Positions 3,396-11,806 of a DNA stretch of 64,000 bases are shown here, in pieces (position 1 is the stretch's first letter; each line of letters begins with the position of its first letter). The notes below the pieces were generated by a model, which was given only the letters and a program-made list of their open reading frames with translations, ran no database searches and was not told where the DNA came from. Origin of the DNA: Melampsora larici-populina 98AG31 (taxonomy: Eukaryota > Basidiomycota > Pucciniomycetes > Pucciniales > Melampsoraceae); contig NW_006768822.1 in the NCBI RefSeq assembly GCF_000204055.1, forward strand, positions 213,122 through 277,121, in the 5' to 3' direction. The translations under genes were made by a program, and so were the position numbers.

Positions 3396-3404
3396 CCTCA
3401 GACG
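3396..3404. repeat. 9-bp target-site duplication, left copy (CCTCAGACG)
   Basis: CCTCAGACG lies directly outside the left terminal inverted repeat and is repeated exactly at 9952-9960 directly outside the right one. Perfect flanking duplication of this length marks a transposition event. Nine bases is typical of Mutator-like elements and differs from the 8 bp of hAT elements. Confidence 0.9.
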
Positions 3405-3501
3405 CTAACTTAACAAAGTCCATCGCAACAGCCGGGACGGGTCCGAGGCTTGAGCGAGGGACTTATGCCAAAGCCGTCGCTGGTGGTGGTAGAAGTTTGG
3501 G
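3405..3501 (+). repeat. Left terminal inverted repeat of the helicase/DUF6589 element
   Basis: Reading inward it matches the reverse complement of 9847-9951 with a few substitutions and small gaps. Shared blocks include CTAACTTAACA, GTCCGAGGCTTGAGCGAGGG and GTGGTAGAAGTTTGGG. Confidence 0.88.
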
Positions 3502-3844
3502 TAAATTTGGGATTTTTGGCCGTCTTTGGCGCTACAATAACATGGTGCTTGTACCTTTCAAGGTGAAGCTTTGGTTTGAATTCGAGGCCCTCAAAGAACA
3601 TCATGTCATCAGGGTAGTTTGAGGAAACAAGCATGCGAAGAGTTGATCGTTGTTGAGGGCAATTCAAAAGTCGGTTCACCACATTTTTGGGATTGAAGTC
3701 GACTGCGGATGCATTCGACCATGCCCCATGGAATCTAACTGTCACTCCTTGAAACCTGAGAATGATCGAAATGCAAAAATTTTGCTCACCACATATTGAG
3801 TTACCTCAGTTACTTGTATAGTCATAATCATAATCTACACGGAA

Positions 3845-6536
3845 ATGGGAAACAATCGCAATCACAAGAAAAGAACTCCAGTTAAAGGAAAAGCCTCGAA
3901 TTCACTTTGGTCCGCAAAAAGCTCGAAGTCACCTAATGGCAAGGCTCCATCTACCGCCAGTCCGCCCTCGTCCAAAAAGAAGCCTAAGATTGGCCAAAGT
4001 GCCAGACTCCCTCGGAAAGGCCCGGTCAAGATAGATCCTTCAGTTCAAGACCTCACCATCACAGGCTTAGTGGCACACGTGCGCAAGGACTTCATCGCCA
4101 CATTCGAGCAGAACCCAAGGTCTCTGCAAGTCGACATCGTGCAGCTGTTAGCTAGGGGCCTGGATGCGTTCTTGATCGCTGGGACCGGTTATGGAAAGAC
4201 GCGTATTCCAGAGAGCTTTGTGCGCCTGTTCAACAAGGAAGACCATCCTATTGTCCTTATCCTCAATCCCTTGGATGCATTGGGTGATAATCAAGTGAGT
4301 AAGAGATGAAATAAACACTCTAAGTATCAAGGGAATACAAACTGACACGTGCTTTTTCTGTTAGGTAAAAGAAAAAAGTGATGCGGGATTCACAGCTGTG
4401 AATCTCACTATGTGGACATATACAGATGAGGTTGGAAAGGGTATTAAGGCTGGGGAATATACATTTATATACTTGGTCAGTATGATAAGCTCATATCAGT
4501 GAGTTGAATGGCTGTGACACATGACTAAAAGGCAATCAATGTACATTTTTAGAGTCCTGAGATCTTCCTCAATGATAAAAGATTCCAAATCATGTACACT
4601 AGTCAATGGTTCCAAGACCGTTTGGTATTGAAAGTTGTTGACGAGGCTCACATGATATACTCATGGGGTCTGGTGGAAAGCAAGCAGTCCAAATCGCTGC
4701 AATCTTTTGCACGACAGAGTGATGGTGGAAAGTTTCGTCCGTCATACGGAAGGTTAGGGTCAAGGTTGATGGGGACCAGCAATGTTCCTATGCTGCTCAT
4801 GTCCGCAACCTGCCCACCTCGACAGTTTAACGCAATCCTTGAAAATCTCAGTATCAAAAAAGAAAAGATCGAAACACGGCACGGCGAACTTACTCGACCT
4901 GAGATCACCATCATTCGCATCAAGATGAAGCACGCAGCGTACAGCTTAGAGGACATCGGTGATAGCTTCTGTTCACAATCTCAAGTTAGCGATTCCGATT
5001 TGGTCCCGACCTTGATTTACACAGGCTCTCGCAAGGCAACAATGGTCGCAGTGAAGGCTGTAGCTAAAAAGCGTCGGACGATGAATGAAGAGAAGATATC
5101 CAATAGCATGTCAGTTCGACGTTATCATTCAAATACGGGACAGAAAGACAAATTGGATCGTATCAATGATTACGCTAGTGGTTTATTTGCCATAATTTGT
5201 TGTACAATTGCGCTGGGGCTTGGCCAGAACTGGCCCCGCGTTCGCCGTGTCATTCAGATGGGTCGAACTGAGCCATGTTCACTTTCCCAAATACTTGGCC
5301 GATGTGGTCGTAATAATCGGCTTGGTTTGGGTGTTGTGTATGTAGAAGAAACAAGGCGAGGCGGTAAAAATTCTGTCACAGACTTTCAAGACTAAGTTAG
5401 CCGATTGGACTGACGATGACATGATGGATGCCTATGCTGTCACTCCGGTGTGCTTACGTGTGGCTTTGACATTGGCAAATAAGTAAGTTGTTTGATCTGG
5501 TTAACTCGATCAACAGATATGTCAGCTCAAACATTTCACGGTGCTTTTTCAGGAAGGGGATCATACCCTTAGATGTTACAGACAAGTCCTATCTAGAAGA
5601 GAGGGCGCGAGAGGATAAGGAGGGATTCAAAATATGTAAATGCTCCAACTGTGATCCGGAGAACAGCGATTTGATTATAAAAAACATGCACCGGTTCACA
5701 AACGATAATTTTGAGCAATGTCTGTCCCAACCGGACAAGTTTCTAGATCTAGAGGACGCTGCTCTCAACGATGCTGAGATGATAGACGAAATAGTTGCTG
5801 ATCCCCTGAGGTTAATCGATCGAACCAAGGATCCAATTCAGACATCAGACGAAGACCTCAAAGGGCTCGGAGAAGTATTGAAGGACGTCTTTTACACTCA
5901 TTACAGTGAGATCTTCGGTAAAGATGGTGATCTTTGTGTCGAAGATTATTTCCGGGATGTTGACATGTGGCGGATTTTGAATAATGTCAATTTAATTCAC
6001 AACGAAGACGACCTTCAGTGGCTCCTAGGCGGTGATATCCTCGTAGGTGGAGTTCATAAGCTGTTTCTTTCGCTTCAGTGTTGGAAACAGAGCCCCACAG
6101 CCATCGAAAGGGAGGAGCGAATGGCGGTACGGAAAGCTATCGCAGCTCAAGTCTATCGTGAGACTATTGAACGTCTGGAAAAGCAAAACACACAGAGATT
6201 ACAAGCGGACCAACTAGCCAAAATTCGACTTGAACAAAAGGCCATCAAGTTGGCCAAAAGAGTCGAAGAGGCCCGATTGGCCAAGATCCGACTTGACAAG
6301 GCAAAATATGCTCGAGAATCAAATTCTCGAGCAATGCATTGGTTGAAAAATGAAAAGGTACCAATGTAAGTTTTGATTGCATGTGTAGTTTCTCATAGTG
6401 GCGTATCAGGGGGAGGTTTTTTAAATGAAACACTGATCTATATACATTTGTGGCCTGGATTCAAACCTAAAGCGAGCTTATTTCTGAGAAAGAAGAGCTA
6501 TACCTAGCAGAACAAGCCAATCGCATTGCTGAGTAG
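3845..6536 (+). CDS. RecQ-like superfamily 2 DNA helicase of the TIR element (one frameshift)
   Basis: Predicted exons are 3845-4294, 4365-4475, 4553-5482, 5553-6365 and 6473-6536. Helicase motifs appear in order: a basic N-terminus (KKRTPVKGK); motif I GTGYGKT (residues 113-119); motif Ia VLILNPLDAL; DEAH box VVDEAHMIYSWG; motif III LLMSATCPP; motif IV PTLIYTGSRK; motif V TIALGLGQNWP; and motif VI QILGRCGR with the arginine finger. A Cys cluster (CKCSNC) and a charged coiled-coil tail with repeated LAKIRL follow. This resembles the fungal RecQ-like and telomere-linked helicases; expected activity is ATP-driven 3'-5' unwinding. The frame used up to YVEETRRGGKN (about 5370) differs by one base from the frame of TDDDMMDAYAVTPVCLRVAL downstream. 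A one-base indel near the A-run at 5366-5372 would explain it, by mutation or sequencing error. It converges with the DUF6589 gene. Confidence 0.85.
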
Positions 6537-6569
6537 GCCACCAGACACTGTAAGGCTATCACTTGATCT

Positions 6570-9500
6570 TCAGTCACCAGAAACCCACTCCAAAACCTCC
6601 GAGAAATCAAGCTCATCCTTGTCCTTTGGGTTCTCAATATCTATCCAATCTGACCACCGAAAACGCCCCAAATCGTTAGTGGTGGCATACAGCTGTAGCT
6701 TCTGGATACCAAGGCGATTGCAATCTTTCACTGCCCCAGCAGTGATGCAAGATCCGGGTCTATTCTTGGTGAGTTGGTTGAGGCGGGCAAATCGAAGGAA
6801 GCTTTTGAGTGACGCTGGAGTTATGAGATTTTTGTGAGATTGATATATGTGATTGGAACCGGAACGACCCTTAAGCTTATGTAAAAGCTCCCGTAGCTGA
6901 AATTGGTTGTCATTAATACATTTCCAACATTTTACATCAGAGTGTCATTGGTGATGAACGTACCAAGGGGATGTTGATAGAATATAAAAGGATCAATTGA
7001 TCCGAATCCGTTCCAATACCCTGTTGAGATGAATTTTGGAATTAAACTAATCAATTGCCTATCACAAGAATCTACCAGACTAGTAATTAATGCAATGACC
7101 GACCGAACTGTTATAAAAGTATTTGAGCCAGTAGTTCTGGACTTCCAAATACACATCTTTAGCAACAAAATGCCCTGGTCGCCCTGAAGGAGATACTAGC
7201 ATTGAGTGCTTGATTACATGAGCTAGTTCTGGTGGAAGAGTTTCGTTTAGAAGGTAAACCATCCGTGGAAGGTAAATAGAATAATGAGTAAGACCCTTCA
7301 TGCCCTGGACCATCACAGACCATCGTTTGTAGATCATCATCAGTCGGCCAATATCCCCAGCTGAAGTGGCTTCCGAAGCCTCCACAATCGTTGCAAAATC
7401 TCGCAGACGGAGAATTAAGCGTGATAATTGATCATCTTGGTTATTTTCAGCCGCGCGTAATGATTCACCTGAAAAAAAACGTTCATGGGTTTCATTAACC
7501 ACTTCAATGAACTTTTCGGGAGAGAGGTTCAGATCCTGTTGTAACGCTTCCTCGCTGAGGCCCATAACTTCCCTGCAAAATTATAAAGGGGTCAGTAGAC
7601 AAATAAGAATGATAAAGGTCATTTTAATTGGCAACTCACAGGAGCGTATGACACACAGTGCCATAGTGTACTCGTTCAACCCATCGGATTAGGCCAGTGA
7701 AGTCTTTTTTTGAAAGCGGCTTCTCTTTCTTTCCGCCAAGTGCGACTACAGATTGCCACGCCCCCAAATCTTCTTTATCGGATAGATCACCCCAGTGTGC
7801 CAGTACAATTGCCTGTGAAACATTCCACAGGGTATGACCGGCGCCCAACAACATCACAATGTGATTCATGGCTTCGTCTGCATATGAAGAAGGACCCCTC
7901 TCGTCTTCAATGCTTTGGAAGTTCCGAGCTGTGCCAAGATCACCTTCAAAAACTTGTGGTCGATTAGCAAAAGTCTCTTCATCGAGTCCAAGTTGCTGTC
8001 ATATTTCCTGATACATTGAGCCAGCCCCGTCGGCTGAATTGTCGGCGGATCTCATCAATTGAAGCATGTAGATGTCTGGTTTTGCCGAGTCGATTTGGTC
8101 AACCGCCGGAGGATTTAAAAGTGGGTGTTTTGACATTGCTGAGCCAGGTGAGAGATATTGTAACAGGGTTTTGGCGATTTGATACTTCAAAGTCTGACGC
8201 CACCGATCATGGTCTTCCTTCTTAGAAATGAGTAGACCCGGATTAATATCAACTTTTCCGGCTTCAAGAAGGATTTTTCGAAATCCATTGAGGGTGAACG
8301 AGTTAGGATCCACGTTAGCAAGTAGTGCCGGTCTCAGGAAGTGTATGTATGCCCAGGACCCGTGGAACATCTTGGTGCTCTCCTCGAGACGCTCGGTGTG
8401 TATACGTTCCTCAAAGTCCAGATTGTCGCAACATATGAAGGGCGCGACTGGTGTAGGTTGAGCTGAACGAGATTTGATTAAAGCAGCTGTATCGGAACCT
8501 AGTTTACGTAGAGCTCGGGTTGCAGTGCGACGTGAAGTGCTCAAGCCAATGTATCCGAGATACTTGTTCATACGTTCAGAGACACCACCAGCGAGGAAAG
8601 TGAGACCATTCTCCATCTGAAGTGCGTTATGTGAGCGGTTGCAGGCAAAAGCCAGCATACAACACAAGGTAAAAGCAATCTTTTTTCAAAGAGAGGTCAG
8701 CATATGATATAGTGTTTTGAAGTGGTGATATATTGACGTACCTGATCCAGACGATGCTCCTGGTTTGCTTGCTTGTCATTTGATTTACGGTAAACATAAT
8801 CCTCAAACCTTGATGCCTGTACTTCGTGCGTCTCGGTATCTTGAGGTTGTTTTGAAACCTCTTCATCATCTCCAGACTCCGCTTCGGCTTCCTCTTCGTC
8901 TTCATCGGCATTACCTTGGCATCCTGTTTTTGATCTCTTACTTTCTGCACGTCTCTGTCGAAGCAAGTCACTGTGTCTGAGCTTTTGACGAATAAGTTGA
9001 TACATAAATGGCATTGAGCCTTCTACAAGCTTCTGGCGATCTACATCTCTAGAGTGTGACAAATCATCGTGGACAATATTTCTTGAACTGAAAAACATGA
9101 CATTCTTTTTTTTATCCCTCCCCTTCCGTATAGGTATATTTTGGCTTTCAGCAATAGATTGAGCCTAGATATCGTTCAACAATTGGATCAGTACAATTCT
9201 CTATTGTCTAGATTGTGGCGCGTCCAGCTGACCTTGCTCAGCATGTACTCATTCCATACTTTCTCTTCTCCTTTCTCGTCCACCGTGATTCTCCGGATAT
9301 CCTCGATGATCTGCTCGGTTGATTCCCAAGTGGCTGAAGTCCCCCAATATTTACGACGCTCGACAATTTCGGGTTCCGATGAGGTAAGCAACATGTGAAT
9401 GAACTTTTTAGGTGTCAATTGAAGACTTTTGATATAGTTGGCTATCTTTAGTACTGGGGGTATTTCTTCAGATTCGACAGGAGTTACTTCAAATTCATTT

Positions 9501-9598
9501 GATATTTCATGGGATTTTTCTGCTGAGTCCATCATCTGGAGTAGTGGTGGAGTGGTGCGACCAACGAGATCGCATTTCACCAAGCGAGAGTGACACAA
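6570..9598 (-). pseudogene. DUF6589-type protein, candidate transposase, one in-frame TGA
   Basis: Exons 9598-9233, 9104-8742, 8679-7640, 7572-7104, 7020-6964 and 6896-6570 join with consistent phases into 874 codons. An in-frame TGA at 7999-8001 (codon 470) breaks it. I recognise the basidiomycete DUF6589 pattern: N-terminal FIHMLLTSSEPEIVERRKYWG; an acidic linker; then CCDNLDFEERIHTER, VFEGDLGTARNFQS, LLGAGHTLWNVSQAI and KDVYLEVQNYWLKYFYN. Family function is undescribed as far as I know. Asp328 (DN), Asp490 (GD) and Glu733 (LEVQN) could be a DDE triad, which is inference. It is the only other gene in the element besides the helicase and ends 33 bp from it. TGA may derive from CGA by C-to-T change. 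The first ATG at 9598 was used; an inner MM lies about 20 codons downstream. Confidence 0.78.
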
Positions 9599-9846
9599 TA
9601 TCTATGTATGTAAATTACAAGTGTTTCCAGGTCGCAGCAATCACAATCAAAAATTGAGCATGGAAGAATTTCTCTTTTCTCGTTTTCGGATTGGAATGAT
9701 GATGCCTTTCAGGATGAAATTGAGAAATCTGAATAGACAGTTTTGAGCCAAAGATGTAGCGCAAGGGCTCCATGTAAAGAAAAGGGTTTGTTTGCTGAAG
9801 ATGATCAGGTGTTAATGCGTTCAGACTGTGTGTTGGTCAAATGTGG

Positions 9847-9951
9847 CCCAAACTTCTACCACCAACAGAGTCGGCCATGGCTCAAGTCCCTCGCTCAAGC
9901 CTCGGACCTGTCCGGTAAAAATGGCTTAGCGAGGGACTTGTGTTAAGTTAG
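9847..9951 (-). repeat. Right terminal inverted repeat of the helicase/DUF6589 element
   Basis: Reverse complement matches 3405-3501 and ends at the tip GTTAAGTTAG just before the right target duplication. Confidence 0.88.
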
Positions 9952-9960
9952 CCTCAGACG
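9952..9960. repeat. 9-bp target-site duplication, right copy
   Basis: CCTCAGACG, identical to 3396-3404 and directly adjacent to the right TIR. Confidence 0.9.
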
Positions 9961-10611: not shown

Positions 10612-11097
10612 ATCTCCTCTTCCAAAGCAGCATGCCTGCTCCCAAAGAGGGGCCTATGACTAAAACCCCGGGTTTGGCCTGAGCACAGTGAGATTTTGAA
10701 GCACAGGCTGAAAAGACCATTTCATGGGCTCTAAACATCATGAAACCTCACAAAAAGTTGTGAGGAGCTTTTTAGAATCCTTTGACACATACTCACGCCA
10801 CTTTGAACACCAATACATTTGAGCAGAGTGACACAGTTGGGCTGTTGAGTTCTTGTAAATCTGGGACTGATTCAATCTACATGTGCACCTAAACCATCCA
10901 AAATCACTTGATCTTGGAGTCCAATTTCCTTGCAATCCACAGCTTTTGACATGGGGAAAGTACCACAAGAGAATGTGGTTTCAAGCCAAAGTGCTTCAAA
11001 GTATTGCTGTGCTCAGGCCAAACTTGTGGTTTTAGTCATAAGCCCCTCTTCAAGAGCAGAAATGGCTGCTTGGGAAGAGGGGCTTAGTTGAGCTTAG
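10612..11097. mobile_element. MITE-like inverted-repeat element
   Basis: About 100 bp at 10612-10714 matches the reverse complement of about 10975-11097. Shared blocks include TATGACTAAAACC, TTTGGCCTGAGCACAG and TTTGAAGCAC. The right tip, read inward, is CTAAGCTCAACTAAGCCCC, which resembles the tip of the helicase/DUF6589 element. The left tip is degraded and no clean target duplication was found. There is no coding capacity. Confidence 0.6.
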
Positions 11098-11266
11098 TGT
11101 CATTTGCGATCAGTCACAAGTCAAATGAGTTTATTCAGGCCTGCTCTGGATCTGTGATCCAGCCATGTGAGGGATGGGTATGGAGGCTACAAAGCTTGAC
11201 TCTGTTCACTGTGTATGGGAATCTCAGGCTCAGGACATTTCCCTGAGTCAAGGGGAGGTCCCACTA

Positions 11267-11804
11267 CAGCTGTTTGCATAAAAAATGCCGTCGCCCTTTT
11301 TATTTTTTTTATTTTTTTTAAGTTGCACTAGAAATTAACAACCTGGATTCTACATAAGAGCAGCTGTAAGTTGATCATGATGTGCTGATGTGCTGATCCC
11401 CTTTTTAATCCCCCACCTCTCCAATTATACACCTTCTACATACCCTCTCCGATTATTCGAGTGACCCTTATTCACCTTATTTCGGCCATTGACCTGCGGT
11501 AGTTCAAGTGTCCTTTATACACATCTCACCGTTGAGGCTTGAAAAAGCGCTGATTTAGTTGTCCATTGCGATGCTGAGCTTTGCTTGCAACCATACCAAA
11601 GCTTGAGAAAGCTTGTGCATCTCGAATACAAGGGCAGCAATACTGGTGATCTTTCAGGATCTTTCACAAACTTTGCACCCTTGAAAAAGTCGAGTACAGC
11701 CTACTACAGCTCTTATGTAGAATCTACATTGGTAATTTTTAGTGCAACTTAAAAAAAATAAAAAAATAAAAGAGGGCAACAGCATTTTTTTATGCAAACA
11801 GCTG
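11267..11804. mobile_element. MITE with CAGCTGTTTGCATAA tips flanked by TA
   Basis: The left end (CAGCTGTTTGCATAAAA from 11267, then an A/T-homopolymer tract and AAGTTGCACTA) is repeated inverted at the right, ending at 11804. Inverted similarity extends about 100 bp, through ATTCTACATAAGAGC. Both ends are flanked by TA, as for Tc1/mariner-type insertions. No transposase is encoded, so it is probably non-autonomous. Confidence 0.75.
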
Positions 11805-11806
11805 TA

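Follow-up and report, generated by a model that had tools for sequence, protein, structure and literature searches.

The window analyzed here, 64,000 nucleotides of the rust fungus Melampsora larici-populina 98AG31 (contig NW_006768822.1), contains a unit in which a RecQ-family helicase gene and a gene of the Pfam family DUF6589 converge between terminal inverted repeats (TIRs), flanked by a 9-bp target site duplication (TSD). In all probability, this is an AcademH-type cut-and-paste DNA transposon in degenerate form, with the DUF6589 protein as its Asp-Asp-Glu (DDE) transposase and the RecQ-family helicase as an accessory. The unit itself, its ends and TSDs, the linkage and co-divergence of the two genes, and tip pairs that lack genes but share the TSD length are observed directly. 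New here are the amplification of the element in this strain, the co-divergence of its genes, the internally palindromic ends, and elements of only 69–101 bp; the likely assignment of DUF6589, from structure prediction, as the transposase is new as well.

Structure of the element

The unit spans 6,547 bp (3405–9951) and is enclosed by the exact 9-bp repeat CCTCAGACG (3396–3404 and 9952–9960). Read inward from the tips, both ends follow CTAACTTAACA(C)AAGTCC(A/C)TCGC. An ungapped arm of 67 nt (3435–3501/9847–9913) is 88% complementary, and a gapped alignment extends the likeness of the ends out to the tips, giving a left TIR of 97 bp and a right TIR of 105 bp. The coordinates, the TIRs, the perfect 9-bp TSD, and the converging helicase and DUF6589 genes had been given in an original prediction made from the sequence alone, and are exact. 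The features in window coordinates are:

3396..3404, unstranded: left TSD CCTCAGACG, 9 bp, identical to 9952–9960
3405..3501, plus strand: left TIR, 97 bp, tip CTAACTTAACAAAGTCCATCGC; its own start recurs inside, inverted (GAGGGACTT, one mismatch)
3845..4294 (approximate), plus strand: helicase exon 1, start of the DEAD domain with AGTGYGKT; open frame, Pfam DEAD 8e-4, under the curated cut-off
4553..5395 (approximate), plus strand: main helicase exon, end of DEAD and Helicase_C; Helicase_C 5.6e-10, over the curated cut-off
5554..6369 (approximate), plus strand: C-terminal part of the helicase gene, no confident domain; open frame, one weak sub-cut-off Pfam match
6573..7577, minus strand: 3' part of the DUF6589 gene including introns, profile positions 221–371; Pfam 2.9e-36 for 7083–7577, no family for 6573–6902
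7639..8655, minus strand: central DUF6589 exon, profile positions 11–211; Pfam 2.9e-16 and 1.2e-5 (the latter under the cut-off)
8700..9601 (approximate), minus strand: 5' exons of the DUF6589 gene including an intron; open frames, no Pfam match over the cut-off
9847..9951, minus strand: right TIR, 105 bp, tip CTAACTTAACACAAGTCCCTCGC, inner inverted copy GAGGGACTT
9952..9960, unstranded: right TSD CCTCAGACG, 9 bp, identical to 3396–3404

The best NCBI family model for the plus-strand exons is TIGR00614 recQ_fam (1.3e-14, under its curated cut-off), and the best solved relatives of the main helicase exon are structures of human WRN (E 1.1e-5). The minus-strand exons together match PF20231 DUF6589 over profile positions 11–371, and the gene converges with that of the helicase. 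The central DUF6589 exon has an in-frame stop at 7999–8001, a position at which the related protein P0001 continues; the helicase frame is broken near the end of the main exon, where the related copy L041 is open. Neither defect had figured in the original prediction. Because of this premature stop and this frame break the window copy is probably non-productive: judging from its reading frames it probably makes neither full protein, and it looks non-autonomous. Some other copies have open frames across the DUF6589 or helicase stretch searched. P0010 is not taken for the protein of the window copy itself, since it shares just 30% identity with the exon in the window.

Recurrence and co-divergence of the gene pair

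Searches of the genome yield at least 104 DUF6589 matches (102 of 248 candidates scored) and 138 matches of the helicase exon, merging into at least 94 DUF6589 loci and 136 helicase loci. A helicase lies within 8 kb at 85 of the 94 DUF6589 loci found and is convergent at 84 of the 94, random placement giving about 2.5% of loci. Conversely, a DUF6589 match lies within 8 kb at 86 of 136 helicase loci; the other 50 have none among the matches listed.

Duplications were assessed in 17 gene-pair copies, a non-random subset of the 84 loci (the window copy, L069, L070, and 14 with the far end guessed from gene position), tips being judged by reading of the alignment rows. Exact 9-bp TSDs at matching tips are seen in nine (the window copy, L041, L042, L044, L046, L047, L053, L069, and L070), those of L044 and L047 allowing an 11-bp reading as well, in which the outermost C and G belong to the target. 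For the remaining eight, L048 has both tips and no duplication, and in seven the tip is unrecognized at one or both ends. When ends are paired across different gene-pair copies, a 9-bp duplication appears in 0 of 210 combinations.

The tip pattern CTAACTTAACNAAGTCCCTC occurs 157 times (76 + 81), and its reverse not at all. Among the first 100 of these 157 places listed there are 29 inverted tip pairs within 20 kb: 20 with an exact 9-bp duplication, three with an exact 8-bp duplication, two with nine bases and one mismatch, and four with none; the mismatched-end control gives 0 of 812. Chance pairing of TIRs and TSDs is ruled out by the two mismatched-end controls.

Pairwise identities of the transposase and of the helicase are strongly correlated among 13 gene pairs (r 0.94), as they are when the near-identical L026 and L027 are left out (11 pairs, r 0.92); none of 5,000 permutations reaches either value. 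Given that r of 0.92 and transposase identities down to about 31%, the comparison argues that helicase and DUF6589 have been kept together through long divergence within one genome. The claim that the two genes form one mobile unit is thus upheld by the convergent arrangement at 84 of 94 loci, the 9-bp TSDs in nine of 17 copies, and the co-divergence; the recurrence that the original prediction had proposed to look for, both genes between matching tips with 9-bp TSDs elsewhere, is likewise borne out in those nine copies of the 17 tested, the window's included.

One could suppose instead that a host helicase and a DUF6589 gene were captured once, by accident, between the ends of an element whose transposase is encoded elsewhere. 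The window copy alone is compatible with such a composite, and the tip is common to many gene-less pairs, but the convergent pair at 84 loci, the co-divergence (r 0.92), the transposase fold predicted inside the unit, and the TSDs that flank copies with both genes in several lineages already contradict it and make it most improbable.

Over 4,143 bp, L025 has 99.98% identity with L026 and 99.93% with L027, the three copies lying on three contigs, and the two copies of this set that have duplications sit at different target sites. The existence of such close relatives at separate sites implies that the family has been active recently elsewhere in the genome. Divergence between close copies is uneven (L046 vs. 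L047 and L048; L025 vs. L026 and L027), with 98.9% identity on the helicase side and 99.9% on the transposase side. The helicase matches at C16:1321023, C29:485177, and C82:289520 have the same score and identity and no DUF6589 nearby among the matches listed; they are perhaps another recently moved set. A further helicase match, at G000:C19:652001-652600 (minus strand), lies inside a 3,355-aa open frame, which may be either a gap in the assembly, read through as N, or an exceptionally long gene.

DUF6589 as the likely transposase

According to the original prediction, no known transposase lies inside the unit; the predicted fold and conserved residues of DUF6589 speak otherwise. When a DUF6589 protein was compared with PDB by sequence, the sole match was streptavidin (E 1.6), which is at chance level, so a fold search was needed. 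For the predicted structure of the DUF6589 relative P0002, fold-match ranks 1–16 are occupied by Hermes, the P element, ISCth4 (IS256-type), Tn5, and RAG1, the Hermes and P-element matches having only about 8% identity. D301/D304, D468, and E628 are conserved in the DUF6589 alignment, as are other acidic residues, and GxxH is conserved at residues 500–503, with H503 in 33 of 34 rows (some rows being partial proteins). From the predicted fold, DUF6589 is likely a DDE (RNase H-fold) transposase. Pfam assigns no Mutator-like element (MULE) family to the window exons or to P0002, P0010, P0022, and P0030; one of the structures matched by fold is the IS256-type ISCth4.

Protein searches return one relative for the 228-aa exon, at least 60 for the 544-aa open frame of L013, and at least 49 for alignment A1, about 8,000 candidates being scored in each of the latter two. 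The species-named relatives among the matches listed come from Melampsora or Puccinia only. DUF6589 was not found in the literature searched.

Palindromic ends and gene-less tip pairs

In 22 of 31 ends, the tip-adjacent 9-mer starting with AAG recurs in inverted orientation within the first 120 bp with at most one mismatch, against 0.41 expected from shuffles; nine of the 31 fail this rule, the two L069 ends showing by eye a copy shifted by one base. Not all of the 31 ends are independent, several being near-identical, and some helicase-side tips were chosen by a loose pattern. Such palindromic ends could allow hairpin formation or the binding of two transposase units; that the helicase opens them is a reasonable guess.

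Matches of both genes lie inside five of the 29 tip pairs, and of neither inside 24. Nineteen of the 29 span 69–738 bp, seven of these being 586–587 bp long; the smallest (69, 72, and 75 bp) have an exact 9-bp duplication in two cases and nine bases with a mismatch in one. At L004, a 101-bp element of the window's family has a 9-bp duplication of its own, GCGCTGGGA; the element's first 53 bases correspond to the right end of the window copy (98%) and its last 48 to the left end (100%). As this element is little but ends with a TSD, about 50 bp of each end seem enough for mobilization, with the proteins presumably supplied in trans. We read most gene-less tip pairs as non-autonomous derivatives, short and with the same TSD length, as expected of a class II family.

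The original prediction had named two outcomes that would speak against it: tips without either gene in most copies, and the genes being unlinked elsewhere. The former is what we see in 24 of 29 pairs that share a single exact tip pattern; the latter is not, 84 of 94 loci being linked. We do not take the gene-less tips as a refutation, because a cut-and-paste family is expected to have non-autonomous derivatives.

Relation to known transposons

Among the fold matches, hAT (Hermes) and P-element transposases resemble DUF6589 at about 8% identity, and DUF6589 lacks a conserved C/DxxH. Target duplications of hAT and P elements are 8 bp long, and neither group is known to have a helicase partner. 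The target duplication of Kolobok is TTAA; the TSDs here are varied 9-mers. Telomere-linked RecQ helicases of fungi are likewise repeated members of the RecQ family, whereas here the helicase is inside a transposon with TIRs. AcademH was reportedly described by Kojima in 2020, in Mob DNA 11:15, as a lineage of the Academ superfamily.

The published descriptions used below are represented by extracts of the papers. In these, AcademH is the helicase-encoding Academ lineage with TSDs of 9 or 10 bp, AcademX has TSDs of 3 or 4 bp, and the difference is linked to helicase vs. nuclease (PMC10045372). In Basidiomycota, Ascomycota, and Mucoromycota, AcademH has low copy numbers (PMC10799480), and 81% of fungal Academ copies (1,568/1,938) have recognizable protein domains, e.g., DEAD helicase (PF00270) and recQ_fam (PMC6416283); both domains are present in the window helicase, both under curated cut-offs. 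The unit shares with AcademH a predicted DDD/E transposase, a helicase, a basidiomycete host, and 9-bp TSDs (exact 8 bp in three of 29 tip pairs), and differs in abundance: low-copy in fungi as published, convergent pairs at 84 loci here. Judged by the published descriptions, the unit very probably is AcademH. The claim of an undescribed transposon type therefore gives way, AcademH being in print (PMC10045372, PMC10799480), with DEAD and recQ_fam domains in fungal Academ (PMC6416283). AcademX, placed in the same superfamily, was rejected, since it has 3- or 4-bp TSDs and a nuclease, as opposed to 9 bp and a helicase here. The available parts of the literature on Academ with Melampsora or Puccinia hold no description of a rust Academ element; in the extracts of a 2025 rust survey, Academ comes up in the background section and the reference list, and a 'TIR-Unknown' family is reported as common to Melampsoraceae (PMC12210899).

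KolobokH, the other fungal transposon with a RecQ helicase, is found in fungi only and encodes the helicase downstream of the transposase domain (PMC9587614), in keeping with the host and helicase type observed. Kolobok transposases carry a C/DxxH signature between the second D and the last E (PMC9587614, PMC10045372), but any such string occurs in only five of 34 DUF6589 rows (some of them partial), and the helicase here is a separate, converging gene. TSD, gene layout, and motif all speak against identity with KolobokH, which is rejected as very improbable.

A further alternative is a separate, unnamed superfamily, in which a DUF6589 DDE transposase and a RecQ-like helicase with 9-bp TSDs would be AcademH-like in layout only. 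The likeness to AcademH is one of published descriptions, and the GxxH at residues 500–503 fits a lineage of its own; on the other hand, helicase type, TSD length, fungal host, and transposon class all agree with the extracts on AcademH and fungal Academ, and we consider this alternative unlikely. An extended version is equally doubtful: DUF6589 would be its own DDE superfamily, not Academ, its RecQ-like partner kept through a long rust radiation, the helicase extruding or unwinding palindromic ends capable of hairpins, and the group a main unrecognized source of Melampsora 'TIR-Unknown' repeats and dispersed RecQ-like genes.

Neighboring features in the window

A MutS homologue with MutS domains II, III, and V has its exons on the minus strand from position 1 to about 3210. 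Its probable start is, by eye, about 200 bp from the insertion, and the element seems to be inserted just upstream of this mismatch-repair gene. Further tips of the related TAAGCTTAAC..AAGCCCC type (at most two edits) at 11096, 57225, and 62583, all on the minus strand, suggest other group members or derivatives. An inverted pair of about 90 bp, 83% alike, at 10616–11080 adjoins the tip at 11096. A separate repeat resembling a miniature inverted-repeat transposable element (MITE) at 11265–11806 has two inverted arms, each about 98 bp long, which are 89% alike and about 350 bp apart.

Proposed mechanism and implications

In the AcademH-type reading, the minus-strand DUF6589 protein would bind the AAGTCCCTC-like TIR motif, present as an inverted pair at most ends examined, excise the element, and join it to the target via staggered cuts, which would leave the 9-bp duplications. 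The converging RecQ-family helicase would be a long-term accessory, most likely opening or remodeling the palindromic ends or a cut intermediate.

DUF6589, a Pfam family of unknown function, thereby becomes the likely transposase of Academ-type elements that carry a helicase. Rust genes now annotated as 'uncharacterized' or RecQ-like could in many cases be recognized as belonging to transposons. An AcademH-type group is also seen to have been amplified and diversified into many lineages in one fungus, and its near-identical copies and 69–101-bp elements would suit testing of the role of a helicase in cut-and-paste transposition.
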